Assembly: GCF_900176475.1 (NCBI RefSeq)
Contig: NZ_FWXX01000006.1
Location: forward strand, 186,001-250,000
Origin: Tropicibacter naphthalenivorans
GTDB taxonomy: Bacteria > Pseudomonadota > Alphaproteobacteria > Rhodobacterales > Rhodobacteraceae
Length of the DNA: 64,000 nt
Reading direction: 5' to 3'
A model generated the notes under the pieces. That model saw nothing but the letters and a program-made list of their open reading frames with translations, ran no database searches and was not told where the DNA came from. Below are positions 31,268 through 45,690 of the stretch, piece after piece. The translations under genes and the position numbers were made by a program. Each line of letters begins with the position of its first letter. Positions within the stretch are counted from its first letter, which is position 1.

Positions 31268-32532
31268 TCAGCCGTCCGCGGCAAGCACCTTGGCCGCCGG
31301 CATGGGCCGCGCGAAAAGATAGCCCTGCGCCATGGTGACGCCCAGTCTCTCAAGCATCACAACCTTTTTCGGATTTTCAACGCCTTCCGCAATGACAACC
31401 CCGCCATGAGACTGCACCATCTCGGCCAGCGCCTTGACGAGGCCGCGCTGCTCTCGGCTCGCCAGCAATCCAATCACAAGCGAGCGGTCAAGCTTGAGAA
31501 AATCGGGCTTCAACTGAATGACGTGCCGCAGACTGGAATACCCCGCGCCGACATCGTCGATCGCGATGCGAAACCCCTGTGCCCGCAGACGCGTCAGGAC
31601 AGACAGAAATGCCGCATAATCCGGCACGCGCTCATGCTCTGTGATTTCCAGCACAATGCGGTGGCGCACGTGCGGCGGAAAGATGCTCTCGAAGTCGAGG
31701 GTTTCAATCGAGGTGACCGAAGCATTGACTGACACGAAAAAGCCGTCGCCCATCTGCATGGGGATGGCGGCTGTCTTTCGCGCGACCGCTTCTTCGAGCG
31801 TTACGATCCGGTCATCGTATTTCGCCCGGCGAAAGATCGTCTCGACGCTCCCCAATTCGGCCGGAAACCGTGTCAGCGCCTCATAGCCTTGGGGGATGGC
31901 ACCGGGCAACGACAAGATGGGCTGAAGGTGAATGTCCAAATCTGTCCGAATGAGCTTGTCGATGCGTAACTCTAGTTCCTCTGCGGACCCGCCTTCGATG
32001 ACCTGCACCTCGATGTCGCGCGAGAGCATGTCGGCGTAAATGCCGAACATCGCGACATCGCGGTCTGTCAGATCCTGGCGCGGCTGACGGCTAAAAGCGC
32101 AGAGCATCCCCCAGGTGACACCAGTCGACAGGATGATCGGAAAACTGACATGGGCACCGATGGGCAGGTCCAGCGTTTCGGGGTTATCCGCGACAGACGG
32201 CTCGGTCCGTGCGTCTGTCATAAGGGTCGGCGCCGCCCCTTGCGCAATCCGGTCGCAATAGCTGCGCCCAGCAAAGAGCCATCTCCGCGGCGCAGCGAAA
32301 GTGTGGGGGAGCACGCGCCAATGAGAATTTCGTCGAAAATCCGTTCGGTGGCCGTGAACCGCGAGATGAAGGCGACGTCCATCCCAAAGAGGTCACGCAA
32401 GGCGGACAGCACCTTTTGCTTTTTCCAACGCAGATTTTCCGGATGGCTGGCGATGTCGGTGGCAAGCAGTTCGCCGAAACTTGGCGAGAGTATAAAAAAC
32501 CCCCTTCCGGTCGAGACGCGGGTCTTTGCCAC
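31268..32532 (-). pseudogene. GAF-EAL cyclic-di-GMP phosphodiesterase, frameshifted
   Basis: Two overlapping minus-strand frames make one protein of about 420 residues. The first (32532 to about 32276) begins a GAF domain (LFGMDVAFISRFTATERIFD). The second (to 31268) finishes it (SYCDRIAQGAAPTLMTD, VSFPIILSTG) and adds a full EAL domain: GYEALTRF, NAS, EITEHE, AIDDVGAGYSSLRH, LKLDRSL and AEGVEN, so all phosphodiesterase residues are present. The frame changes in the TTT run at 32273-32275; one extra T would restore it. The 5' start is uncertain (GTG 32532 has no clear ribosome site). Confidence 0.8.
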
Positions 32533-32795: not shown

Positions 32796-32975
32796 TCAGA
32801 CGCCCGCCTGCCCACGCCGGGACAGCGCCCATCCCACGAACAAAGCCAGCCCGATAACGGCCGCGCCGATGGACAGGGCACCAGGCGCGCCCTCTTGCAC
32901 ATGCAGTTCCTGCGCGGGATGCGCCAGACCTGGGCTTGCCGCCAACACTGCGGACACAAAAGTCAGATATTTCAT
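32796..32975 (-). CDS. 59-residue membrane protein with N-terminal signal, in the guanidine locus
   Basis: ATG 32975 overlaps the His-rich gene's TGA as ATGA. The protein starts with a hydrophobic signal (YLTFVSAVLAASPGLA) followed by HPAQELHVQEG. It has one transmembrane segment (SIGAAVIGLALFVGWALSRR) ending in a basic cytoplasmic tail. Translational coupling to the His-rich protein supports it being real. Its His-Pro motif right after the cleavage site is reminiscent of metal-handling small proteins, but no function can be assigned. Confidence 0.7.
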   Translation of the reverse strand: MKYLTFVSAVLAASPGLAHPAQELHVQEGAPGALSIGAAVIGLALFVGWALSRRGQAGV

Positions 32976-33442
32976 TGGTCAATCACTCTCTTTTTCTGGG
33001 CCAAAAAGTCGCGCAAATCCAAGCTCGCCTTCTCGTCCATGGATACGTAAACTAGGCTCATATTGGTGCGCTCTCGCACCATCTCACCGGGAAACGGCAG
33101 GTAACTCAGCTCTCGAGAGCCAAAAGACGGCGAGGCCGTCCCCACCTGCCAATCCGTCGTCAACTCCACATCCACCAGCTTGAGCGCCTTCGCCCCGCCC
33201 TTGCCGGGCCGCTCGAACGGCACCCCCGCCAGCTTCAGATAGAACGTCTTGTCCTTGGCCTGCACAAAACCGTCGATGAATTGCGCCGCGAGCACCTGCA
33301 AATCCGCCGCATCGTCGTGGTGGTGCATATGGCTGTGCAAATGATCCGCGTCATGCGGGTGATTGTGGTCATGCGGGTGATGCGCGTGCCCATGGTCATG
33401 ACCGTGATCATGTCCATGATGGTGATGACGATCATGCGGCAT
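32972..33442 (-). CDS. His-rich protein, possible nickel/zinc-binding accessory protein
   Basis: A 156-residue protein. Residues 5-43 are a His/Asp tract (HHHHGHDHGHDHGH, then HPHDADHLHSHMHHHDD) with over twenty histidines; the rest is a compact domain with FLKLAGVPFE-like and YLPFPGEMVRERTNMSLVY segments that I do not recognise. No signal peptide, so it is cytoplasmic. It follows a ureohydrolase gene related to Ni-dependent guanidine hydrolase, so metal storage or delivery to that enzyme is plausible; this is inference. ATGA overlap with the next gene. Confidence 0.8.
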   Translation of the reverse strand: MPHDRHHHHGHDHGHDHGHAHHPHDHNHPHDADHLHSHMHHHDDAADLQVLAAQFIDGFVQAKDKTFYLKLAGVPFERPGKGGAKALKLVDVELTTDWQVGTASPSFGSRELSYLPFPGEMVRERTNMSLVYVSMDEKASLDLRDFLAQKKRVIDQ

Positions 33443-33529: not shown

Positions 33530-34807
33530 TCATTCGCCCACCTTGTGCGGCGCGGGATTCGACCAACGCTTGCCCTCGAATTCGCCATGCGGCAGCGTCA
33601 CCGGCTTGTCGATGTGCCGCTTGTGCGCGCCCAGCTTGCCATGCGCCACCATGGACCCCAGCACATCCACGATCACCCGCGTGCCCATCAGGGCGGTGAT
33701 GTCGGACGTATCATAGGGCGGCGAGACCTCGACCAGCTCCAGCCCGCAAATCCCCTCGGCGGCAACCCCGGACGCCAAGGCCAAAGCCTCGCGCGGCAGG
33801 AACCCACCCGGCTCCGGCCAGCCTGTACCCGGGACAAACCCGCAATCAATCGAGTCGATGTCAAAGGACATATAGACCATGTCGACCCCGTCCCAGGCCA
33901 TCTCCAGCGCCATCTCGATGGTCTTGTCTAGCCCCATCTTCTCCATGTCGCCCATGGTGATGATGTTGGTATTCCGCTCGCGGGCAACCTTCACCGCCTC
34001 GCGCGGCACCTGCCAGCCGCCGATCCCGATCTGCACAAGGTTCTTGGCCGGCACGTTCGGCAGGTTGGTCGAATGGAACCAAGGCGTCGTGTGCATCCGC
34101 TCATCAAGGTCTTTTTCCTGAATGTCGGCGTGGCGGTCAAAATGCGCGATACCGATCTTCTTCGACGTACACTCCGCAATGCCGCGCACGCAGGGAAAGC
34201 CGATCGAGTGATCGCCGCCGATCATGATGGGCAAAGACCCCGACGAGAACACATGAGACACCCCGCGCGAAATCTGGTCAAAGCTCTTCTCGATATTCGC
34301 CGGAATGGTGAACACGTCGCCCGCGTCACACAGCGTCATCTGCTCGCGCAGGTCGACCCCCATCTCGTAGTTATATGGCGTATACAGCGCCGAGATCTTG
34401 CGCACCCCCTGCGGGCCAAAGCGCGTGCCGGGCCGATAGGTTGTCCCGCCGTCAAAGGGGATGCCCAAGACCGTCGCGTCGTAGTTGGCCACCTCCAGCA
34501 CGTCCTCGGTGTAGGGCGCCTTGAGAAACGTATTGATCCCTGCGTAATGCGGCAGCTCGCCGCGCGCAAAGGTCGGGATCGACTTGTCCTCGATGGTGTC
34601 CGCGCCGGTCAGACCCATGCGCAAGGCCCAGGCGCGTTCCTCGGCCCAGCGGCCTTCGGGCAGCTCGGCCTCTTTGCGCATCGCCTTCCAACCGGCCAGC
34701 TTGGTCAGGTCGGGGTGGTGGGAGCGCATCTCGCGCGTGGCATGGCGGGCACGCTGGCTGCGCGGGTCGCGGGCGCGGGCCTCTGCCTTGAGTATCTCAG
34801 AAAACAT
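33530..34807 (-). CDS. Ureohydrolase-family protein, probable guanidine hydrolase (GdmH-like)
   Basis: A 425-residue ureohydrolase, longer than agmatinases because of an N-terminal extension of about 90 residues. Metal ligands: H200 (GGDHSIGFP), D224-H226-D228 (HFDRHADIQ) and D316/D318 (SFDIDSID). The HFDRHxD wording, with DERMHTTPWFH after it and GFVPGTGWPEPGGF, is what I recall for nickel-dependent guanidine hydrolase, not for agmatinase (HFDAHxD). The locus starts with a guanidine-I riboswitch, an independent line of evidence. Product would be urea plus ammonia from guanidine. ATG 34807 follows GGGAGA. Confidence 0.8.
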   Translation of the reverse strand: MFSEILKAEARARDPRSQRARHATREMRSHHPDLTKLAGWKAMRKEAELPEGRWAEERAWALRMGLTGADTIEDKSIPTFARGELPHYAGINTFLKAPYTEDVLEVANYDATVLGIPFDGGTTYRPGTRFGPQGVRKISALYTPYNYEMGVDLREQMTLCDAGDVFTIPANIEKSFDQISRGVSHVFSSGSLPIMIGGDHSIGFPCVRGIAECTSKKIGIAHFDRHADIQEKDLDERMHTTPWFHSTNLPNVPAKNLVQIGIGGWQVPREAVKVARERNTNIITMGDMEKMGLDKTIEMALEMAWDGVDMVYMSFDIDSIDCGFVPGTGWPEPGGFLPREALALASGVAAEGICGLELVEVSPPYDTSDITALMGTRVIVDVLGSMVAHGKLGAHKRHIDKPVTLPHGEFEGKRWSNPAPHKVGE

Positions 34808-34902: not shown

Positions 34903-35692
34903 TTACGCCGGCTCTGGGACCGGCTCTGATGCGGGCGCAAGCGACGGATAGCGATCAAGGATATGCTGATGCGGCATCCCGCCGTCGCGCGCGTCGAAAT
35001 CATAGGTGACGGTGGCGCCATACAGCCCCGGATCTTGCGGATCCCAGCGCGGCTTATCAAAGACCAGCACCCGGTCGCCCAGCTTGAAGGCCTCTTCGAG
35101 GTCGTGACTGACCATAAAGACGGTCATCTGCGTCTCGGCCCGCAGTTCGGTCAAAAAGTCGTGCAGCTGCCCCCGCGTGCCGGGGTCGAGCGCGCCAAAA
35201 GGCTCGTCCAACAGCAGCACCCGCGGGCGCGCGGTCAGCGCTTGGCCAATGGCAAGGCGCTGTTGCATCCCGCCCGACAGGCTCGCGGGGTATTGCCCGG
35301 CCACGTGGTTCAACCCAATGCGCACCAGCATGGCATCAGCGCGGTCGCGGGCCGCGCGCTTGGCCGCGCCGAACAGCCAGCCAGAGCGGGTGTTGAACCC
35401 CTCGGCGGCGACGATATTTTCGCGCACAGTCAGATGTGGAAACACCGAGTAGCGTTGAAAGACCACGCCGCGCGCGCCCTGGCTCGACGGCCACGTCCCC
35501 GCCATCGACGGTGATCGCCCCGCGCACCGGGCGCTCATCCGCCAGCAGCAGCCGCAAAAAGGTGGACTTGCCGCAGCCCGACGCACCAACGATAGAGACG
35601 AACTCGCCCTCAGAGACGTCGAGGTTCACCCGTTCGATAATGGATCGCCCGCCGTAGGCTTGCCAGACGTCACGGACCTGTACGAAACTCAT
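34903..35692 (-). pseudogene. ABC importer ATPase of the guanidine locus, frameshifted
   Basis: ATG 35692 overlaps the permease stop as ATGA. The first frame gives MSFVQVRDVWQAYGG, Walker A GASGCGKST and DERPVRGAITVDGGD. The second, from about 35485, gives VVFQRYSVFPHLTV (Q-loop), LSGGMQQRLAIGQAL (signature), LLLDEPFGALD (Walker B) and SHDLEEAF. The two frames differ by one base near the GGGCGCGCGCGG run (35477-35490 region); losing one G would join them. NitT/TauT-type. As written, the protein would stop soon after Walker A. Confidence 0.85.
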
Positions 35693-36501
35693 AAGCCTGC
35701 CTCCATCCACGGAAACGCCTTGCGCGACAGCTGTTTCAGCAGCCAATCCAGCACATAGGCCAGCAGGGTGATCCAGATGACGTAAGTCAGGATCACATCC
35801 ATCGCCAGCTACCGCCGCACAAGGAAGATGCGATAGCCAAGGCCCACATCCGCCGCCACCGCTTCGGCGGCGATCAGGAACAGCCAGGCAGAGCCCAGCG
35901 ACAGGCGCACATTGGCAATCAGGCGCGGCAGCACCTGAGGCAGCGCCACCCGCGCGGCGATGACCCAGGACGACGCCCCAAGGGTCTGCGCCTTGACCAG
36001 TTGTTCATGCGGAATATCCAGCACCCGCTGCGCCAGATCGCGGGTCATAAAGGGGGTGATCCCGATCACGATCAGCACCACCTTGGACGTCTCGCCAAGG
36101 CCAAAGACGATGAACAGGATCGGCAGCAGCGCCAAGGGTGGTACCATCGACAGCACCGCCACGAACCCCGACAACAGCGACCGGAACAGCGGCAGCAGCC
36201 CGACGACCATGCCAATGACCAAGGACAGCACCGCCGAAATTCCAACGCCCCCCAGCAGGCGCGAGAGCGACGCCCATGTATCCTTCCACAGCAGGAGCTC
36301 GCCAGAGCGGCGGTCGCCTTGGGTGAACAGGCGCACGGCGGTCTCTTGGATCGTGGACAGCGCGGGCAGCAGCTTGTCCGACGGGTTCGCCGCCAGCCGC
36401 ATGTCCGAGCCGACCGCATAGGCGATCAGCACCGCGATGAACGGCACGGCGGCCAGAAACACCGCGAGCGGACGAGAGGGGATACGGTTGATCAGTCGCA
36501 T
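35689..36501 (-). pseudogene. ABC importer permease of the guanidine locus, in-frame amber stop
   Basis: A NitT/TauT-type permease with an N-terminal helix (PLAVFLAAVPFIAVLIAYAV) and the EAA-type loop HEQLVKAQTLGASSWVIAAR. After GYRIFLVRR a TAG occurs at 35809-35811, then the same frame continues with LAMDVILTYVIWITLLAYVL and ends at TGA 35689-35691, exactly overlapping the ATPase start. Homologues have Tyr at this point, one base away from TAG. The stop removes the last 40 residues including a terminal helix. Readthrough or a base error would restore a 270-residue protein. Confidence 0.85.
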
Positions 36502-36548: not shown

Positions 36549-36606
36549 ATTGCGCGGCACTCAGAGCGCGCCGGCTTCTCCATTGCGCGGCACTCAGAGC
36601 GCGCCG
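36549..36606. repeat. 33-base tandem duplication spanning the SBP stop codon
   Basis: ATTGCGCGGCACTCAGAGCG plus GCCG-type continuation occurs at 36549-36573 and again identically at 36582-36606, a 25-base direct repeat with 33-base period. The right copy contains the SBP stop (36594-36596), so the left copy repeats the gene's last codons downstream of its stop. This looks like a recent tandem duplication. Confidence 0.85.
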
Positions 36607-37661
36607 TCGGCGGCCATCTGCATGTAAGTGGCGTCAAAGCGGAACATCACGTTCGCCTCGTTCCCCGACACCGTCCCATCGGGATAGGCGATGCCGACGA
36701 AATCCGCCGAGGGCGCGCCCTCGCCCAGGATGCCCTTGTCAAAGAGGAACTCGGCCACTTCGGTCATGGTGCCCGGCAGATCGGCAGAAGAGGCCTGCGC
36801 CACCGCATCGGCCGGATCATAGAACATCTCGGTCGCGGCCAGCTGCGCCTTGTAGCCGTCCAGATCGGTGCCCGACGCTTCGGCCATGGCGGTCAAAACC
36901 GCTTCGTCGCCCGCCGCCATCAGGCCCATGACCTCGTACCACGCGCCCACCAGCGCCTTGCCAAAGTCGGGGTTGTCCGCCAGCGTTTGGGTGTTCACCA
37001 CCATCAGATCAAGGATCTCGCCGGGGATTTTCGAGCTGTCGAACAGCACGCTTGCATCCGGGTTGGAGGCCGTGATCTCGGACACCAGCGGGTTCCACGT
37101 CACCACGGTTTTCACGTCGTCGGTGGCGTAGGCGGCGATCATATCGGCGTCAGAGGTGTTCACCACCCCGTCCAGATCCTTTTCCGCCAGCCCTGCGCTG
37201 TCCAGCGCCCGCGCCAGCAGGTAGTGCGAGACCGACAGCTCCACGAGGTTGACCTTGGTCCCCGCCAGATCGGCCAGCGTCATGCCGTCCTTGGCGATCA
37301 CCGCGTCATTGTCGTTGGAATAATCCCCGATGATCAGCGCGGTGGTGTCCACGCCGCTGCCCGAGGGGATCGACAGGGTGTCCATGTTGGTGGCCGACAC
37401 GCCATCGAACGCGCCCGCGGTGTATTGGTTGATGCTTTCGACGTAATCGTTGATCTGCACGATCTCGACGTCGATGCCGTATTTCTCGGCCCATTTGTCC
37501 ATGATGCCGCTGTCTTCGAGATAGCCCCACGGCATCCAGCCCACATAGATTGACCACGCGATCTTGAAGTCGGTCTTTTCCCGCGCGGCGGCAGGCGAGA
37601 GCGTCGCGGCAAGAAGCCCCAGCGAAAGGGCGGTCGTGGCAAGGTGCTTGAGCTTGGTCAT
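36594..37661 (-). CDS. ABC transporter substrate-binding protein, NitT/TauT type (guanidine-responsive)
   Basis: A 355-residue periplasmic binding protein. ATG 37661 begins a Sec signal peptide (ATTALSLGLLAATLSPAAA). The mature part has KIAWSIYVGWMPWGYLEDSG and GVSATNMDTLSIPSGSGVD, typical of NMT1/NitT-type binding proteins. It is first in the operon, about 90 bases downstream of a guanidine-I riboswitch with terminator, and its importer partners follow. Guanidine (or a guanidino compound) is the best ligand guess; family members bind diverse ligands. Confidence 0.88.
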   Translation of the reverse strand: MTKLKHLATTALSLGLLAATLSPAAAREKTDFKIAWSIYVGWMPWGYLEDSGIMDKWAEKYGIDVEIVQINDYVESINQYTAGAFDGVSATNMDTLSIPSGSGVDTTALIIGDYSNDNDAVIAKDGMTLADLAGTKVNLVELSVSHYLLARALDSAGLAEKDLDGVVNTSDADMIAAYATDDVKTVVTWNPLVSEITASNPDASVLFDSSKIPGEILDLMVVNTQTLADNPDFGKALVGAWYEVMGLMAAGDEAVLTAMAEASGTDLDGYKAQLAATEMFYDPADAVAQASSADLPGTMTEVAEFLFDKGILGEGAPSADFVGIAYPDGTVSGNEANVMFRFDATYMQMAADGAL

Positions 37662-37695
37662 GTGATTTCCCCGGTTCAGCGTCCCGCTCATTGCA

Positions 37696-37746
37696 AAAGG
37701 TTCGCTCCCCGCGGGCGGAACAAGAACAAGGCGCGGGATGAACCTG
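37696..37746 (-). terminator. Probable terminator expression platform of the riboswitch
   Basis: On the minus strand AGGTTC (37746-37741) pairs with GAACCT (37704-37699), enclosing CCCGCG pairing with CGCGGG, and the stem ends in TTTT (37699-37696). It lies between the aptamer and the SBP start, where guanidine-I riboswitches usually place a terminator that guanidine binding disrupts. Confidence 0.65.
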
Positions 37747-37749
37747 CGC

Positions 37750-37860
37750 AGTATGCCTCCCGGGATTTTGGCCCGCCGTGTGCCCCACGGGATTTGGCCC
37801 GCCGGGTGGATTTCTCGGACCGAACCTGCCCCTTGGGACAGTGGAACCCTAAACGCCCTG
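37750..37860 (-). promoter_or_regulatory. Guanidine-I (ykkC) riboswitch aptamer
   Basis: The minus strand carries, in order, TTTAGGGTTCC (37854-37844), GGTTCGGTCCGAGAAA (37828-37813), ACGGCGGG with AAAA (37780 onward) and CCCGGGAGGC (37765-37756). These match the most conserved guanidine-I aptamer segments (UAGGGUUCC, GGUCCGAGA, ACGGCGGG..AAAA..CCCGGGAG) in the right order and spacing. A terminator-like stem follows. Guanidine binding would turn on the importer and ureohydrolase operon. A covariance-model search would settle the call. Confidence 0.85.
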
Positions 37861-37865
37861 CCCGT

Positions 37866-38598
37866 TCATGCGACACCAGCGTTCACGTTTCGGACAAGCC
37901 AGAGCGCGGGGGGCGCCCGGCAAAAATGCCAAATTGAAGCATGTTTAAGCGCTATTTTCCGGCGTTTGCCCTCTTTTTGGGCAGGTTTTGCGCGATCCGG
38001 TGGCGCGCAGCCCGTCAACAGTGGGCCGCCGCGATGGCTGCCCCTCTCGGTCACAGGTAGATCACGGGGCTTCGCGCGCGTTTGAGGCAGCCTGCGGGGG
38101 GCTTGCGCCTTTCACACGGCACAGGCGGCCTGATCGCAGCGACACCCCGATTCCGAACCGGCGGGGTGGGGCGTGGTGCGGCCTGCCCTGCCGTGCCACG
38201 GGCCAGTGGATCGCGGCGCTTTCAGTCAGGGTTTGGGGATACAAAGCGTTAATGAAATGCCTATAGCGTTAGCACTGCCGTTTTTATGGACTGAAACTTT
38301 TCTTACAAGACGCGCCGAAAAATTCCAAGAATCCGCCCAAGGAGTCCCACGCATTCTACATATTACCAATTTATAATAGGGGTTTAGGCGTAAATTTCAT
38401 TTTGGCACTCTCCTGCCAAAAATCAAAAGACATCTCTTCAGAATACCTATTTCGCGACGGTGCACAAATTTTAGGCAGGCGCGATCTAGGGCTTTCTTCC
38501 GGCGTTCTTGCGCCTTGCCGCGGCCCGTCATCCTACGGTTTGTGAACTCAACAGGCGGTCACCCCCCTGCCCCAAACGACACGGAAAAGAGCCCGACC
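37866..38598. other. Intergenic region with an AT-rich patch
   Basis: About 730 bases between the riboswitch and the M24 peptidase-like gene, with no convincing full gene. 38240-38490 is much AT-richer than its surroundings (for example TTACCAATTTATAATAGG) and probably holds promoters for the divergent clusters. Within it, 38257-38376 encodes 39 residues ending QGVPRILHITNL, which recalls the start of some capsule or glycosyltransferase proteins (PRILHxIW), so it may be a gene remnant; weak evidence. Confidence 0.5.
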
Positions 38599-39862
38599 AT
38601 GACCCTCACAAAGCTGGCTGACACCCACACCACCCCCCCCGGATTGAGCGCCTTCTGGACGGCTTTGAGCCGGATTTCGAGTTCACCCCCGTGCCGCCGC
38701 TGCCCGAAGCGGAATTTGCAGATCGTCTGCGCCGCATCCGCCAAGAGGCAAGCGCCGCAGGGCATGACGTGCTGCTGGTACATGCGGACAGCATCGGGTC
38801 GTAAAAGGTGTCCAACTCTTACCTGCGCTATATCTGCGATTGTGCCCGCGAGGGGATGCTGATCATTCCCACCGACACGGACCTACCGCTGACCCTGTAC
38901 ACGGTGTTTTCCAGCTCTGTCGTGTTGCCGCCTGCGGGCTTGCCTGTGCTGGTTGACGACATCTGGCAGATCGGGACATGGGGCCGCGAGACCTATAACC
39001 GCCCCGGCCGCGCCTTGGACCGCGTGGTCGAGGCCACGGCAAAGCGACTGGCAGAGCTGGGCTTGACCAAGGCGCAGATCGGGCTGGTGGGCGATGCAAC
39101 CTCGGCGCCCTACTGGGCGGGCCTTGCAGAGAGTCTGCCCGGCAGCCGCTTTGAAAAGGCGCAAGGCATCGTTGACCGAATGCAGCGCCGCCGGTCCAAG
39201 GCGGAGCAGGCCGTGGTCCGGGCCGCGGCGCAGCTGGCCTGTATCGGGATGCAGGCGGCCTATCACGTGATCCGCCCCGGTGTGACCGACCACGAAATCT
39301 ATGCCGCCTTCACCTTTGCCCAGATGGCGCGCGGCGGCGAGACCGGGAAGGCTACCAGATCGGGATCAACCCCTACGGCACCCACTGCGGCAAGCCCTAC
39401 GGCCATGTGGTGCGACCGGGAGCGCTGATCTCGGATGTCGCCAATGTCTCCTTCGAGCCGTACATCCGCCGCGGCGTCCTGACCGACGCCGACAGCCGCT
39501 CCATGCCCTATAACTGGAGCGCGGGCGACGATGGCGCGCCGCTGAAGGTGCCGCAGCAATATGTGCCCAACCCCGACTGGGAAGCCATGGGCCGCCGCAT
39601 CACCCATGTCTGGCCCGCCACCAAGGGGCCGCGCAACCCGAAGGTGGGACATTCGGTATCCATGCCGAAAATGCCGCCCTACAACATCCAATCCAACAAA
39701 CATGCCACCCTCGAAGAGGGCATGACCTTTGTATTGCACTCCCAATGGCTCGATCCGCTGACCGCGGGTGCGAATATTGGCGATTGCTATCTCGTGACAG
39801 ACAACGGGGCCGAGAACCTCTCTTGTCACGTGCCGCTCGGTGTTCATCGCATCCCTGCCTGA
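38599..39862 (+). pseudogene. M24-family metallopeptidase-like gene (ectoine hydrolase/creatinase type), multiply disrupted
   Basis: Pieces in successive frames give IERLLDGFEPDFEFTPVPPL, HADSIG, SNSYLRYICD, LVGDATSAPYWAGLAESLPG, GINPYGTHCGKPYGHVVRPG and VFEMGMTF-like LEEGMTFVLHSQW. This is the M24 fold as in EutD/DoeA and creatinase. Lesions: loss of one C in the C8 run at 38633-38640; TAA at 38802-38804 where homologues read Trp-Tyr (here TCG TAA); loss of one G near 39345-39347; and a probable in-frame deletion at about 39415-39430, where RPGALI joins directly to SDVANVSFEPYI. ATG 38599 is the likely original start. Confidence 0.8.
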
Positions 39863-39909
39863 CGCCTTCCTTCCCTCCCTTTCCAAGTCCAACAAGAGGA
39901 AAACCCAAC

Positions 39910-41160
39910 ATGACTTTCACCCGACGCACCCTGATGGCCGGCGCTGCGGCGCTTGCGATGCTCGCAGGCGCGGGCGCCCCCGCCGCCGCGCAGGACCAGG
40001 TCACGCTGACCATCGCCAACACCCAGTGGCTGGATGCGCTGCGCGGCGAAAACCTGTGGGCCGCCGTGAAAAGGTTCGAGGACAGCCACCCGAACATCAC
40101 GCTGGAACAGCACACGATTTCGCGCAACGAGTTCAACGACCGCCTGATCACCGAAATGGGCGCGCGTCAGGGCCCCAACATCCTCATCGGGCAGGACGGT
40201 CTGTTCTAAACGCTGATCGGGGCCGACTTCCTGATCCCGCTGGATGACGTGACCGAAGGCGTCGACACCCTGAACGCCACCAACGACAACGGCGTCGTGG
40301 ACGGCACCCGCTATGGCATCGGCTGGCACCGCGCCGTTTACGCGCTGATCTTCAACAAGGCGATCCTGGCAGAGGCCGGCGTCGAGCTGCCCGAGACCAT
40401 CGAAGAGATGATCGCCGCCGCCAAGACCGCCAGCGAAGCCACCGGCGCCATCGGCTTTACCGGCCGCCACTCGATGAACGAGTTCAGCCCGTGGTCCAAG
40501 GACTTCCTCAACTGGGCCTATGGCTACGGCGCCGAGCTGGTCGATGACAGCGGCAAGATCACCTTTGGCACGCCGGAAATGGCGCAGGCCTTTGACGCGT
40601 TCAAGGCGGCCTATGACAGCGGCATCATTCCGATCGGCGACCAGATGAGCACCCAGCGCACCCGATTCAAGGAACAGCAGATGGCGTTCTCGCTGGACAA
40701 CTCCGGCGGCTCGCTGAACATCGCCACGGGCGGCCCGCTGCCCGGTGACGAGCTTGGCGCGACGGCGCTGCCCTTCCCGCATCCGGGCGCGCACCAGCAG
40801 ATCTTTCTGGGCGTGAACACCTGGTCCAGCGACGCGGAAAATGCCGCCGCCAAGGAATTCCTGTCCTGGCTGATCTCTGAAGAGGGGCAAACCTCGCTGC
40901 GCGCCGCCTCTGGCCCCGATGCGCTGGCGACCGATGTTCCGGTCACCGCAGAGTTCGTCGCGGCGAACCCCTGGGCGACCACCTTTGCCGAAATGGCGGC
41001 AGACTCGCGCTCGACGCTGATCCCGGGGTATGAGCTGGAAACCCAGTCGATCCTGCGCCCGCTGATGACCAGCCTTGAAAAGGTCCTGCTGAACGCGGCC
41101 ACGACCGAAGAAGCCCTGGACGAGGCACAGGCCGAAATCGACGCGGACTACAACAACTGA
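39910..41160 (+). pseudogene. Sugar-type ABC transporter substrate-binding protein with in-frame stop
   Basis: ATG 39910 (AAGAGGA upstream) begins a signal peptide (MAGAAALAMLAGAGAPAAA). The frame gives VTLTIANTQWLDALRGENLW then meets TAA at 40207-40209 after IGQDGLF, and continues without shift through TLIGADFLIPLDDVTEG to DEAQAEIDADYNN and TGA at 41158. Without the stop it would be a normal 416-residue family 1 solute-binding protein. TAA is one base from a Tyr codon. Permease and ATPase genes follow. Confidence 0.85.
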
Positions 41161-41192
41161 GCCGCCGATCCCGGTTTAAAGGACCGCGACCC

Positions 41193-42042
41193 ATGACTTC
41201 TACACTGTTCAAGCGTGAACGACTGTTGGGCCTTGTTCCCTACGCGTTCGTCGCGGTCCCACTGGCCTACATGACGCTGTTCGTCGTTGGCCAGCTCATC
41301 CAGCAAGTCTGGATGAGCTTTACGGATACGCGCCTGATGAAGCCCACCGCGGACGATTTCATCGGGCTTGAAAACTATCAAGACCTGCTGACCGACGATC
41401 AGTTCTATACGTCGTTCTCGGTCACGATCATCTACACGATCCTGACGGTGATCCTTGGCATTCTGGTCGGCACGGCGTCGGCGCTGGCGCTGGGCCGTGC
41501 CGTCGGTTGCCGCCACGCTGGTCTGGCTGTGTATCTTTAACGGGCCGTCCGGCGTGGCCAGCGACATCACCCAAGCGCTTGGGTTTGGGCGCATCCCGTG
41601 GCTGACCTCTGTGGACTTGGCGCTGACCTCGATCATGTTCGTGACGATCTGGCAGGTGTCGCCTTTCGTCATGCTGGTGATGATGGCCGCGCTGCAATCG
41701 GTCCCCGAAGAAGTGCGCGAAGCCGCCCGGATCGACGGGGCCGATGCGCTGAACGTGTTCCGCAACGTAACGCTGCCCTACATTCTGCCGACCATGCAGA
41801 TCGTGGCCCTGCTGGTGGCGGTCTGGTCGATCCGCCGTTTCGAGGTGATCTACCTGCTGACCGGGGGTGGCCCGATCGGGTCCACGTCCACCCTTGTGGT
41901 GCAACTGCGCCTGACCGCGTTCGAGGACTTCGAACTGGGCCTCGCCTCTGCCTATGGCGTCGTCGGCCTTGTGCTCGCGCTCGCGGTGGCCTTTGCCCAC
42001 TTCCTGTTTGAACGCCGCCGCGCACGGGTGATGTCGAAATGA
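41193..42042 (+). pseudogene. ABC transporter permease 1, internal deletion with frameshift
   Basis: A MalF/UgpA-type permease. The first frame gives PYAFVAVPLAYMTLFVVGQL to GTASALALGRAV; the second resumes at AVPSVAATLVWLCIFNGPSG and runs through VPEEVREAARIDGADALNVF (the EAA loop) to SK and TGA, overlapping the next ATG. Around 41490-41510 the usual roughly 15 residues between LALGR and WAVPSVAA are missing. CTGGGCCGTGCC at the joint can be read both as Leu-Gly-Arg-Ala and as the end of Trp-Ala-Val, consistent with deletion between short repeats. Confidence 0.8.
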
Positions 42043-42867
42043 AAACCAATCCTCTCTTTTCCCTGCTGCGCGTGGCCTTGATCGCTGTGCTGGTCACCTT
42101 TGCCGGTTTTCCGATCTACTGGATGGCGACCACCGCGCTGGGCACCGATACGCAGCTGTTCAACACCGGCCAGTTGCCCTGTCCGCAGCTGTCCAACCTG
42201 CCGAACCTGATCACGGCCCTTAGCGAAGTTCCCGTCCTGCGCTGGATGTCCAACACCGCCGTGATCGCGCTGGGCAACACGGTGCTCAGCCTGATGCTGG
42301 GCTCGCTGCTGGGCTATGCCCTGTCGCGGTTCAAGTTCCACGGGCGCGGGTTGATCGGCTTTTTGATGTTCATGACGCAGGTCATCCCCGAGGCGCTGCT
42401 GGTGGTGCCGCTCTATGCCATGTTCATCTCGCTGGGGCTGCTGAACAGCCTGTGGGGCGTGATCCTTGCCAACTCGGGTTTTCGCTGCCGGTCGCGGCCT
42501 TCATCCTCAAGGGGGCCATCGACTCGATCCCCTATGAGATCGAGGAAAGCGCCATCATCGACGGCTGCCCGCGCCTTGGGATCCTCTCCTTTATCGTCTT
42601 TCCGCTGATCGCACCCAGCCTCGCCGCCGCCGCTGTCATCTGTTTCTTTGGTGGCTGGAACGAGTTCCAGTTCGCCGTGACCTTCCTGATGGACCCGGAC
42701 CTGTGGCCCGCGGCCGTCGGCATGGCCAGCTTTATCGGCGAGTATGAGACGCCGCTGTCCGCCGTGATGGGCACCGCACTGATGTTCTCCATTCCCGCCG
42801 TGTGTTTTTCCTTCTCGTTCAACGCAAGATCGTCGCAGGCTTGACCTCCGGCGCAGTCAAGGGGTGA
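42039..42867 (+). pseudogene. ABC transporter permease 2, two frameshifts
   Basis: A MalG/UgpE-type permease starting at ATG 42039 (ATGA overlap). The frame runs to LLNSLWGVILANSGF, then shifts near the TTTT run at 42479-42482 to SLPVAAFILKGAIDSIPYEI and IEESAIIDGCPRLGILSFIV (EAA loop). It shifts again near 42800 (GCCGTGTGTTTTT, one G short) to FLLVQRKIVAGLTSGAVKG and TGA 42865-42867. Each shift is cured by adding one base, which would give a 276-residue protein. Confidence 0.8.
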
Positions 42868-42871
42868 TCCG

Positions 42872-44047
<1,176 letters not shown>

Positions 44048-44071
44048 CCCGACTGACACAAGGAGACTGAC

Positions 44072-44980
44072 GTGGACCGCTTCCTCGTTTCGGCCACTGG
44101 CCACAGCCTGAACTACCTGCCGCACTACATCGCCAACGAACAGGGCTTCTTTGCCCAAGAGGGTCTGGAGGTGACCGAAGTGGTCCCACGCCCTTGGGAT
44201 CTGGTGCTGGATCACATCCGCGATGGCGACGCCGAGGCCGCGCTGGGCGGGATCTGGGTGCCGTCGATGTTCCACGGGCGCGGGCGCCGTCTGGTGCCTT
44301 TTGCGCAGGTGTCGAACCGGGCGCCCTTGGCGCTGATTGGGCGGCACGAAGCGCCCGCCTTTGACGCGCAGGCCTTGGTCGGCAAGACCGTCCTGATGAA
44401 AGGATCGAACGGCGCGAGCGTGGGCATGTACCTCAAGATGATGCTGCGCGAGGCGGGCGTGGACCCTGCGGCGGTCAACTATATCCAGGACCTTGACGCC
44501 GGTATCCTGCAAAGCTGCTTTGCCGGGGGCATGGGGGATTACCTGCTGATCGACCTGCCCGGCGCGCTGGCCTATCAGGCGGCAGGCCATGGCAAGCTGT
44601 GCGCGACATTTGCCCGCGACGGCGGCGACATCCCGTGGAGCGTCTACTACACCGAAGGTCTGGACGCAGGCGACACCCGGCCCGTACGCTTCGCCCGTGC
44701 GCTGGGACGCGGCATGGCGTGGGTCAACAGCCACGATGCGGGCAGCTACGCCGACGTGCTGGCGCGGCTGTTCCCCAAGATCGACTGGGCGATCTCGGTG
44801 CAGGTGGTCGAGACCTACCGCGAATGCGCCATGTGGACCTCGTCGCGCATCGGTGAAGCGTCCTATGCCCGCTGGCAACAAGGCATTGCCGACGCCCATC
44901 TGACCGACGCGCCAATCGCCTATGACACGCTGAACGACGGTGCGCCGACCCGCGCCTTGGAAAAGGGGGTTGCCGCATGA
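44072..44980 (+). CDS. NMT1/THI5-like protein without signal peptide
   Basis: A 302-residue protein with NMT1/SsuA-type binding fold features: YLPHYIANEQGFFAQEGLEV and LVGKTVLMKGSNGASVGMYL. GTG 44072 has AAGGAG upstream, and there is no signal peptide or lipobox. It could be a cytoplasmic enzyme-like THI5 relative or a binding protein that lost its export signal. It lies 24 bases after the ATPase gene and overlaps the racemase start as ATGA. Confidence 0.75.
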   Translation: MDRFLVSATGHSLNYLPHYIANEQGFFAQEGLEVTEVVPRPWDLVLDHIRDGDAEAALGGIWVPSMFHGRGRRLVPFAQVSNRAPLALIGRHEAPAFDAQALVGKTVLMKGSNGASVGMYLKMMLREAGVDPAAVNYIQDLDAGILQSCFAGGMGDYLLIDLPGALAYQAAGHGKLCATFARDGGDIPWSVYYTEGLDAGDTRPVRFARALGRGMAWVNSHDAGSYADVLARLFPKIDWAISVQVVETYRECAMWTSSRIGEASYARWQQGIADAHLTDAPIAYDTLNDGAPTRALEKGVAA

Positions 44981-45690
44981 TCCGCATCACCATCACCAAC
45001 CCCAACACCACCGCCTCCATGACGGACGGGATCGCACGCGCCACACGGGCCGCTGCCGCCTCTGATGTCCAGGTGATCGCCGGGCAGTCCGCCATGGGCC
45101 CCGCCGCCATCGAAGGCCCTTTCGACGGCGCGCTGGCCGTCCCCGGCATGTTGTCGCAAATGCAGACCGCCGAACGCGACCACGGCGCGCTGGCGCATAT
45201 CATCGCTTGTTTCGACGACACCGGCCTTGATGCGGCGCGGGCGTTGCTGAACGGCCCGGTGGTCGGCCTTGGCGAGGCGGCGATGCACGTCGCATCGCTG
45301 TTGGGGCACAGCTTTGCCGTGGTCACCACGCTGTCCCGCTCGGTCCCGATCCTCGAAGACAACGTGGCCCGCTATGGCTTTTCCAGCCGCTGCCGCGCGG
45401 TTCTGGCCAGCGACATCCCGGTCCTGGCCCTGCACGACCCAGACAGCGGCGCGACGCAATAGATCTCGGCGCTGATCGACGAGGCCAAGGCGCGCGGCGC
45501 CGAGAGCATCGTTCTGGGCTGTGCGGGCATGGCCGACTTTGCCCGCGATCTAGAGGCACGCCACGCGCTGCCGGTCGTCGAAGGCGTCGGCGCCGCCGTG
45601 GGGCTGGCCAGCATGTTGGCGCGGTCGGGCGCGCAGTCTTCGCGCCTTGGGGTTTGGGCCCGCCCCACCCGCAGCCACCTGCTGGGCTGA
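44977..45690 (+). pseudogene. Asp/Glu/hydantoin racemase, in-frame amber stop
   Basis: The fold opens with IRITITNPNTTASMTDGIAR. The first catalytic cysteine is C78 (IIACFDDTGLDAA). A TAG at 45460-45462 follows DPDSGATQ. The frame continues unshifted with ISALIDEAKARGAESIVLGC (second catalytic cysteine, codon 182) to TGA 45688-45690, a normal 237-residue length. The stop separates the two catalytic cysteines, so the truncated product would be inactive. Substrate may be a hydantoin or an amino acid. Confidence 0.85.

Follow-up and report, generated by a model that had tools for sequence, protein, structure and literature searches.

A guanidine-I riboswitch with a conserved closing helix and a histidine-rich protein gene in a Rhodobacteraceae guanidinase operon

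Gene content of the operon

The sequence analyzed here is a 64,000-nucleotide stretch of the Tropicibacter naphthalenivorans genome (positions 186,001 to 250,000 of contig NZ_FWXX01000006.1), referred to as the window; coordinates are window positions. On its minus strand, a riboswitch aptamer precedes genes for a binding protein, a permease, an ATPase, an arginase-family enzyme, and a His-rich open reading frame (ORF), in that order.

37755..37863 (-), guanidine-I aptamer (RF00442); cmscan 66.7 bits, full length
36594..37661 (-), importer substrate-binding protein; TIGR03427, 511 bits
35809..36501 (-), importer permease, interrupted early by an in-frame stop (after LVRR); BPD_transp_1
34903..35746 (-), importer ATPase in two frames; ABC_tran halves in two ORFs
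33530..34807 (-), guanidinase GdmH; 550 bits to 7esr/7oi1, 533 bits to 9fek
32972..33442 (-), conserved His-rich protein following gdmH; proposed nickel-delivery protein for GdmH

The binding protein likely starts at 37661 because its relatives begin there. An initial reading of the window from its letters and ORFs alone (the sequence-only reading) had placed an importer and a ureohydrolase downstream of the RNA. Both are there, the importer identified by its TIGR03427 match and the enzyme as the known guanidinase GdmH. The closest solved relatives of the enzyme are two known guanidinases, from Synechocystis (7esr, 550 bits) and Nitrospira (9fek, 533 bits), followed by a guanidinobutyrase (172 bits). 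Its translation, when aligned, contains the metal motifs GGDHS, FDRHAD, and SFDIDSID and the active-site tryptophan in GTGWPEPGG. Annotation of the ureohydrolase as an agmatinase was set aside, as the ranking of PDB matches favors a guanidinase. A urease alpha subunit is encoded elsewhere in the genome. Given that importer, GdmH, and urease are all present, guanidine would be imported and hydrolyzed to urea and ammonia, with urease acting last.

The same operon lies 3' of the riboswitch across Rhodobacteraceae. Riboswitch-controlled importer-guanidinase operons have been described in Synechocystis and other organisms (PMC8390497, PMC12186494), and the window operon is thus a further member of a known arrangement. 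It shares the guanidine-I riboswitch, the ABC importer, and GdmH with the Synechocystis sll1077 (GdmH) operon (PMC8390497, PMC12186494). However, the Synechocystis operon has GhaA/GhaB, whereas no hypA/hypB homologues were seen in the window operon, which has the His-rich protein after gdmH instead. The guanidinase operon of Nitrospira inopinata likewise combines a guanidine-I riboswitch with GdmH and has no HypA/HypB chaperone (PMC11410670), but it encodes an APC permease in place of the ABC importer found here.

Identity and sequence state of the aptamer

A cmscan search against Rfam matched Guanidine-I (RF00442) at 37755-37863 on the minus strand over the full model length (1-107), with 66.7 bits (E 1.2e-9 for the window) and a margin of 3.7 bits over the gathering score of 63 bits. 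This match was the sole Rfam match within the window and the sole Guanidine-I match genome-wide. With the E limit raised up to 1, cmscan still reported RF00442 only, and the PRPP and ppGpp models gave no match. The sequence-only reading had recognized a guanidine-I riboswitch by four aptamer segments in order on the minus strand; all four are present in that order, and the covariance-model search that it had proposed identifies the same aptamer. Guanidine-I riboswitches were found in 44 of 248 genomes of the family, most of them scoring above the window copy (maximum, 89.6 bits).

We took 100 distinct leaders from relatives and aligned the 54 whose platform is of the window type. The aptamer core nucleotides UAGGGUUCC, GGUCCGAGA, CACGGCGGG, CAAAA, and CCCGGGAG are all present in the window and are invariant or nearly invariant in these 54 leaders. 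An A located 3' of GGUCCG (or GGUCCA) is invariant (54/54); the A after GGUCCG may correspond to A46 of the guanidine-I aptamer. In guanidine-I, A46 is an adenosine, while ykkC subtypes 2a and 2b have a pyrimidine there (PMC6031431).

The window copy departs from its relatives in the P1 helix.

37809..37810 (-), P1 one-base deletion site; gap in the window sequence alone of 54

The sequence-only reading had stated that the GAGAG segment lacks one G. Alignment to the covariance model and to the relatives indicated that a G is indeed gone, but that the loss lies in the P1 3' strand between 37810 and 37809 (AAAU-CC versus AAAUGCC and similar in relatives), and that the last G of GAGAG is instead replaced by A, in a compensated change of a P1 C-G pair to U-A. 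The compensated change is common to the close relatives L101 (Salipiger abyssi) and L102, whereas the gap is absent from both and unique to the window sequence among the 54 aligned leaders. Because of this one-base deletion, P1 would contain a bulge. The modest RF00442 score is probably due in part to the deletion, which could also weaken the aptamer.

Taken alone, the guanidine-I RNA is one more member of a well-known switch class. The RNA class and the enzyme match agree on guanidine as the substrate, as the sequence-only reading had proposed from the RNA. Judged jointly on RNA class, operon, and guanidine function, it is quite probable that this operon serves guanidine assimilation under the control of a guanidine-I riboswitch.

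A closing helix, P0, joins the ends of the aptamer

The RNAalifold consensus of the 54 leaders contains a short helix, P0, formed by GCAG just 5' and CUGC just 3' of the aptamer, thus joining its ends.

37858..37861 (-), P0 helix, 5' strand GCAG; RNAalifold on 54 leaders, covariation in the wider leader set
37748..37751 (-), P0 helix, 3' strand CUGC; RNAalifold on 54 leaders, covariation in the wider leader set

P0 pairs are kept in 100% of cells of the 54-leader alignment, where there is hardly any variation. Across all leaders, 76 cells were paired, compared with 62.2 +/- 3.6 after shuffling, and none of 5,000 shuffles reached 76. Variants that keep the pairs are GCGG/CCGC (L191), GCGC/GCGC (L155), and ACAG/CUGU (L054). 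The P0 positions read GAG/CUC in the riboswitches of operons lacking gdmH in L033, L035, and L072.

Knappenberger and co-workers described P0 for the PRPP and ppGpp aptamers and stated that guanidine-I lacks it (PMC6031431); P0 in these leaders is therefore a variant feature. In the PRPP and ppGpp aptamers, P0 is said to take part in the expression platform (PMC6031431). The window RNA shares with guanidine-I RNAs (RF00442) a full-length covariance match above the cut-off, the conserved nucleotides, and downstream guanidine genes, but it differs from them in its conserved, covarying P0 and in a Rhodobacteraceae platform composed of the hairpins T, H1, and H2 described below. With the PRPP and ppGpp riboswitches (ykkC subtypes 2b and 2a, respectively), it shares a P0 helix that pairs the two ends of the aptamer; it differs in that the binding-pocket segment keeps purines, the gene context is that of guanidine, and Rfam gives no match to their models. 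P0 could be read as a sign that the RNA is a ykkC subtype binding PRPP or ppGpp instead of guanidine, since the helix has been described for those subtypes and not for guanidine-I (PMC6031431). Against this, Rfam returns Guanidine-I alone, the A after GGUCCG/GGUCCA never varies among the 54 leaders, and the associated genes are guanidine genes. We regard that identity as very improbable, and it was set aside. If confirmed, P0 in guanidine-I would narrow the structural gap among guanidine, PRPP, and ppGpp riboswitches.

Hairpins of the expression platform

Between the aptamer and the binding-protein gene, the following elements were recognized.

37731..37749 (-), hairpin T, GCGC-A-GG..CC-C-GCGC, terminator candidate; shares bases with the P0 3' strand
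37718..37729 (-), U-rich tract 3' of hairpin T, UUGUUCUUGUU; 43% U in the aligned columns, 17% elsewhere in the platform
37698..37745 (-), hairpin of the sequence-only reading; holds the H1 core (37738-37733 with 37712-37707)
37681..37721 (-), hairpin H2, GUUCCGCC (37721-37714) with GCGGGAC (37687-37681); RNAalifold, interleaved with H1, just 5' of the Shine-Dalgarno sequence
37667..37672 (-), Shine-Dalgarno-like GGGGAA, from the sequence; aligned leaders keep GGGGA upstream of the start codon

RNAalifold on the 54 leaders returned the aptamer, P0, and H2. The window leader folded alone was uninformative, its energy being no better than that of shuffled sequence (z 0.45). Hairpin T is paired in 86 to 89% of cells across the 54 leaders, with some two-sided changes, and has a predicted energy of -7.9 kcal/mol in the window. 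The tract 3' of it is 82% pyrimidine in the aligned leaders (43% U); it has no true U run and is not U rich in some relatives (Tateyamaria type). Forcing the aptamer in folding lowered the mean probability of T over the 54 leaders from 0.25 to 0.03 and raised that of H2 from 0.47 to 0.65. For the window's own leader, T and H2 came out with low probabilities whether the aptamer was forced or free.

The H1 core has two-sided changes at all 6 pairs (78% of cells paired), and an independent count gave 281 paired cells versus 251 +/- 5 in shuffled data. The consensus of H2 is GUUCCGCC with GGCGGRAC, with 98.6% of cells paired and few two-sided changes. Its covariation test yielded p 0.18 with a loose motif, which included unrelated leaders, and p 0.03 with the motif fixed; H2 thus rests on conservation more than on covariation. 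The interleaving and conservation of H1 and H2 make it likely that they form a pseudoknot or take part in a second switching step.

These elements allow several accounts of how the RNA acts on expression. The sequence-only reading took a stem (AGGTTC..CCCGCG..CGCGGG..GAACCT) followed by TTTT as the platform, that is, as an intrinsic terminator that guanidine binding would prevent. The stem is present at 37745-37698, is G+C rich and stable (about -17.3 kcal/mol), and holds the covarying H1 core. A short U run also follows it in the window: the Ts are found at 37698-37695, but the first lies inside the stem and only UUU follows. No such run occurs in most relatives or at the corresponding position of the closest one, L101, and the 10 nucleotides after the H1 core in the aligned leaders are no richer in U (16%) than the platform elsewhere (17%). 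At least four consecutive U residues 3' of the GUUCCGCC segment occur in just 8 of 59 leaders. Furthermore, the hairpin is missing from the consensus fold and does not overlap the aptamer, so that an action of the ligand on it is hard to see. Termination at this stem is accordingly improbable, and hairpin T is the better terminator candidate. A terminator scan of the minus strand found none.

Another account invokes translational or Rho-linked control, in which the aptamer would choose between interleaved H1/H2 alternatives (or a pseudoknot) before the Shine-Dalgarno sequence, and GUUCCGCC would pair in the free state with GGCGGGNC of the aptamer. The conservation of both H1 and H2 fits this account, as do the higher probability of H2 with the aptamer forced and the complementarity of GUUCCGCC to the aptamer P3 strand (best match, 7.5/8 versus 6.3 shuffled). 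However, Shine-Dalgarno accessibility was unchanged when the aptamer was forced in folding of the 54 leaders, the complementarity may stem from G+C-rich sequence and shared ancestry, and pseudoknots fall outside the treatment of the energy models. We consider such control somewhat unlikely. Transcription control through competition between P0 and T is favored instead because T shares bases with P0, is followed by a U-rich tail, and becomes less probable when the aptamer is forced. The covarying H1 has no role in this P0-versus-T model and is left over as one conserved helix.

Condition of the window copy

In the permease gene of the window, LVRR is followed by an in-frame stop at a position where relatives encode Tyr, and the two ATPase frames are split by a 2-nucleotide gap near 35473 relative to L101. 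Most relatives' operons look intact. In the window strain, the binding-protein, GdmH, and His-rich ORFs are intact. Given the interrupted permease and ATPase genes and the one-base deletion in the aptamer, the window copy may be weakened or decaying, and the operon may not be fully functional.

Several genes nearby are also split over two frames, namely, those for an EAL domain protein, an M24 peptidase, an ABC binding protein, and two ABC permeases (31268-32532, 38808-39862, 39745-41160, 41193-42042, and 42039-42844). These splits suggest that the region carries many small indels of sequencing or assembly origin, or pseudogenes. The permease stop lies outside an indel explanation because it is a substitution.

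The switch and importer of the window strain might thus be decaying relics whose RNA no longer regulates anything useful, to which the unique P1 deletion, the permease stop, and the ATPase frameshift would all be suited. The three intact ORFs argue against this, and the other split genes of the window suggest that some of the damage, though not the permease stop, may reflect indels from sequencing or assembly. Decay to this degree seems a less probable condition of the locus.

Divergent to the riboswitch operon, a plus-strand cluster at 38515-45462 encodes an M24 peptidase resembling ectoine hydrolase, a sugar-type ABC importer, an NMT1-like binding protein, and a probable Asp/Glu/hydantoin racemase.

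A His-rich protein accompanies GdmH

Guanidine-I riboswitches and GdmH operons being already known, the newest element of the locus is the His-rich protein. It contains 19 His in its first 38 residues (tail, 43% His), and across 31 sequences the MPHD start is invariant and HLHSH is conserved. No match was obtained in Pfam, NCBIfam (E 0.001), or PDB with either the single sequence or a profile, and chaperone families such as HypA (PF01155) gave weak matches to His-rich stretches only. PGAP names its relatives "hypothetical protein." The AlphaFold2 model predicts a core (pLDDT 88) of two helices, an antiparallel sheet, and a C-terminal helix. A Foldseek comparison of this core with solved structures gave nothing below E 0.1 (best Z, 2.8), although the lack of a structural match does not make the predicted fold new. 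Fold searches with the whole protein and the core yielded no clear match, and we claim no relation to COMMD, UreE, HypA, or SlyD.

Throughout Rhodobacteraceae, the His-rich gene follows gdmH in every gdmH riboswitch operon whose contig reaches far enough, and it is absent from riboswitch operons without gdmH, except for one remnant (L059). Among GTDB gdmH loci, 79 of 80 have it directly downstream, and the remaining one ends at a contig edge. Surveys of the class and the phylum gave a similar picture: of 385 genomes of the class, 13 encode the His-rich protein and 11 encode GdmH, with both genes present and adjacent in all 11 (hypergeometric p about 1e-19, in a test that ignores phylogeny), and all 7 genomes with GdmH among 398 of the phylum also have the His-rich protein. 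Next to gdmH in the actinobacterial Rubrobacter loci, neither the His-rich gene nor HypA/HypB is annotated; the coupling is thus not universal.

Three His-rich remnants were seen apart from GdmH: a sequence joined to a truncated binding protein (L098), a short fragment adjoining unrelated genes (L094), and the remnant directly 3' of the riboswitch in L059. They look like internal operon deletions (deletion scars) or assembly joins, two of them being attached to the beginning of the operon.

Nickel supply to GdmH

Guanidinase needs nickel. HypA/HypB relatives serve the cyanobacteria, and loading in other lineages is an open question in the literature. Synechocystis GdmH requires the Ni chaperones GhaAB (PMC11271267, PMC12186494). 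For the GdmH of comammox Nitrospira, no chaperone is known and the nickel-loading route has been said to be unclear (PMC11410670). Among 45 gdmH genomes, HypA was detected in 15, that of the window among them, and most are without it; because the window genome encodes HypA elsewhere, the His-rich protein need not be the sole nickel source here.

The His-rich gene adjoins a nickel permease gene in two genomes; in Sinorhizobium fredii NGR234, the next gene encodes a HupE/UreJ nickel permease (153 bits). A parallel is found in the metformin hydrolase operon (hypA, hypB, MefH, and hupE), which combines a Ni ureohydrolase with dedicated nickel helpers and a nearby HupE (PMC11399263), and the S. fredii His-rich gene is likewise followed by hupE. 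The helpers of that operon are HypA/HypB, however, whereas the His-rich protein matches no Pfam family.

A role in nickel delivery or storage for GdmH best explains a protein that is His rich, tied to one nickel enzyme, and located beside a nickel permease in two genomes. With moderate confidence, from sequence features and gene neighborhoods, we propose that its disordered N-terminal tail binds nickel and its folded core passes the metal on to GdmH, in place of the HypA/HypB-type chaperones of cyanobacteria. It might instead be a nickel store or sensor, or a subunit of GdmH; a His-rich tail equally fits storage, and the core has no known homologue that would fix its role. The strict coupling to gdmH favors a role dedicated to GdmH, although a subunit role would explain the coupling too. 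These other functions appear somewhat unlikely.

Proposed mechanism and its implications

Guanidine binding would stabilize the aptamer together with its closing helix, P0. P0 would then take bases needed by hairpin T, so that T with its U-rich tail, the likely stop signal, would not form; H2 would form downstream and the operon would be read. We put the chances that the RNA is an ON switch acting through this particular P0-versus-T step at about even. Imported guanidine would be cut by GdmH to urea and ammonia, with urease completing the path, while the His-rich tail would bind nickel and the folded core would hand it to GdmH.

The combined proposal, namely, a new nickel-delivery family of Alphaproteobacteria dedicated to guanidinase together with a P0-bearing guanidine-I riboswitch whose closing helix doubles as an antiterminator, is tentative, with chances slightly short of even. 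If it is true, guanidinase metallation in operons without HypA/HypB would be explained, and P0 would not be limited to the PRPP and ppGpp subtypes. Since a gene for a "hypothetical protein" follows gdmH in every alphaproteobacterial operon examined, the nickel-loading question is directly testable.

Guanidine-I riboswitches in other arrangements

One genome (G128) carries two guanidine-I riboswitches (L052 and L071), one located before a binding-protein gene alone and the other before a permease-ATPase-gdmH-His-rich gene series. In its second leader, a GCGC hairpin precedes GUUUCUCUUUUGU, which resembles a terminator tail more clearly than any other seen. Relatives without gdmH in the operon (L033, L035, L064, L070, and L072) have a guanidine-I riboswitch followed by an importer of the same type (about 60% identical); their platform is different, often GCCAAGGGAUUGGC, with P0 as GAG/CUC. 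Finally, weak guanidine-I matches (34.6 to 44.6 bits) lie directly 5' of DMT/EamA-like transporter genes in L075, L076, and L077, and these RNAs are possibly diverged ykkC variants with another ligand.
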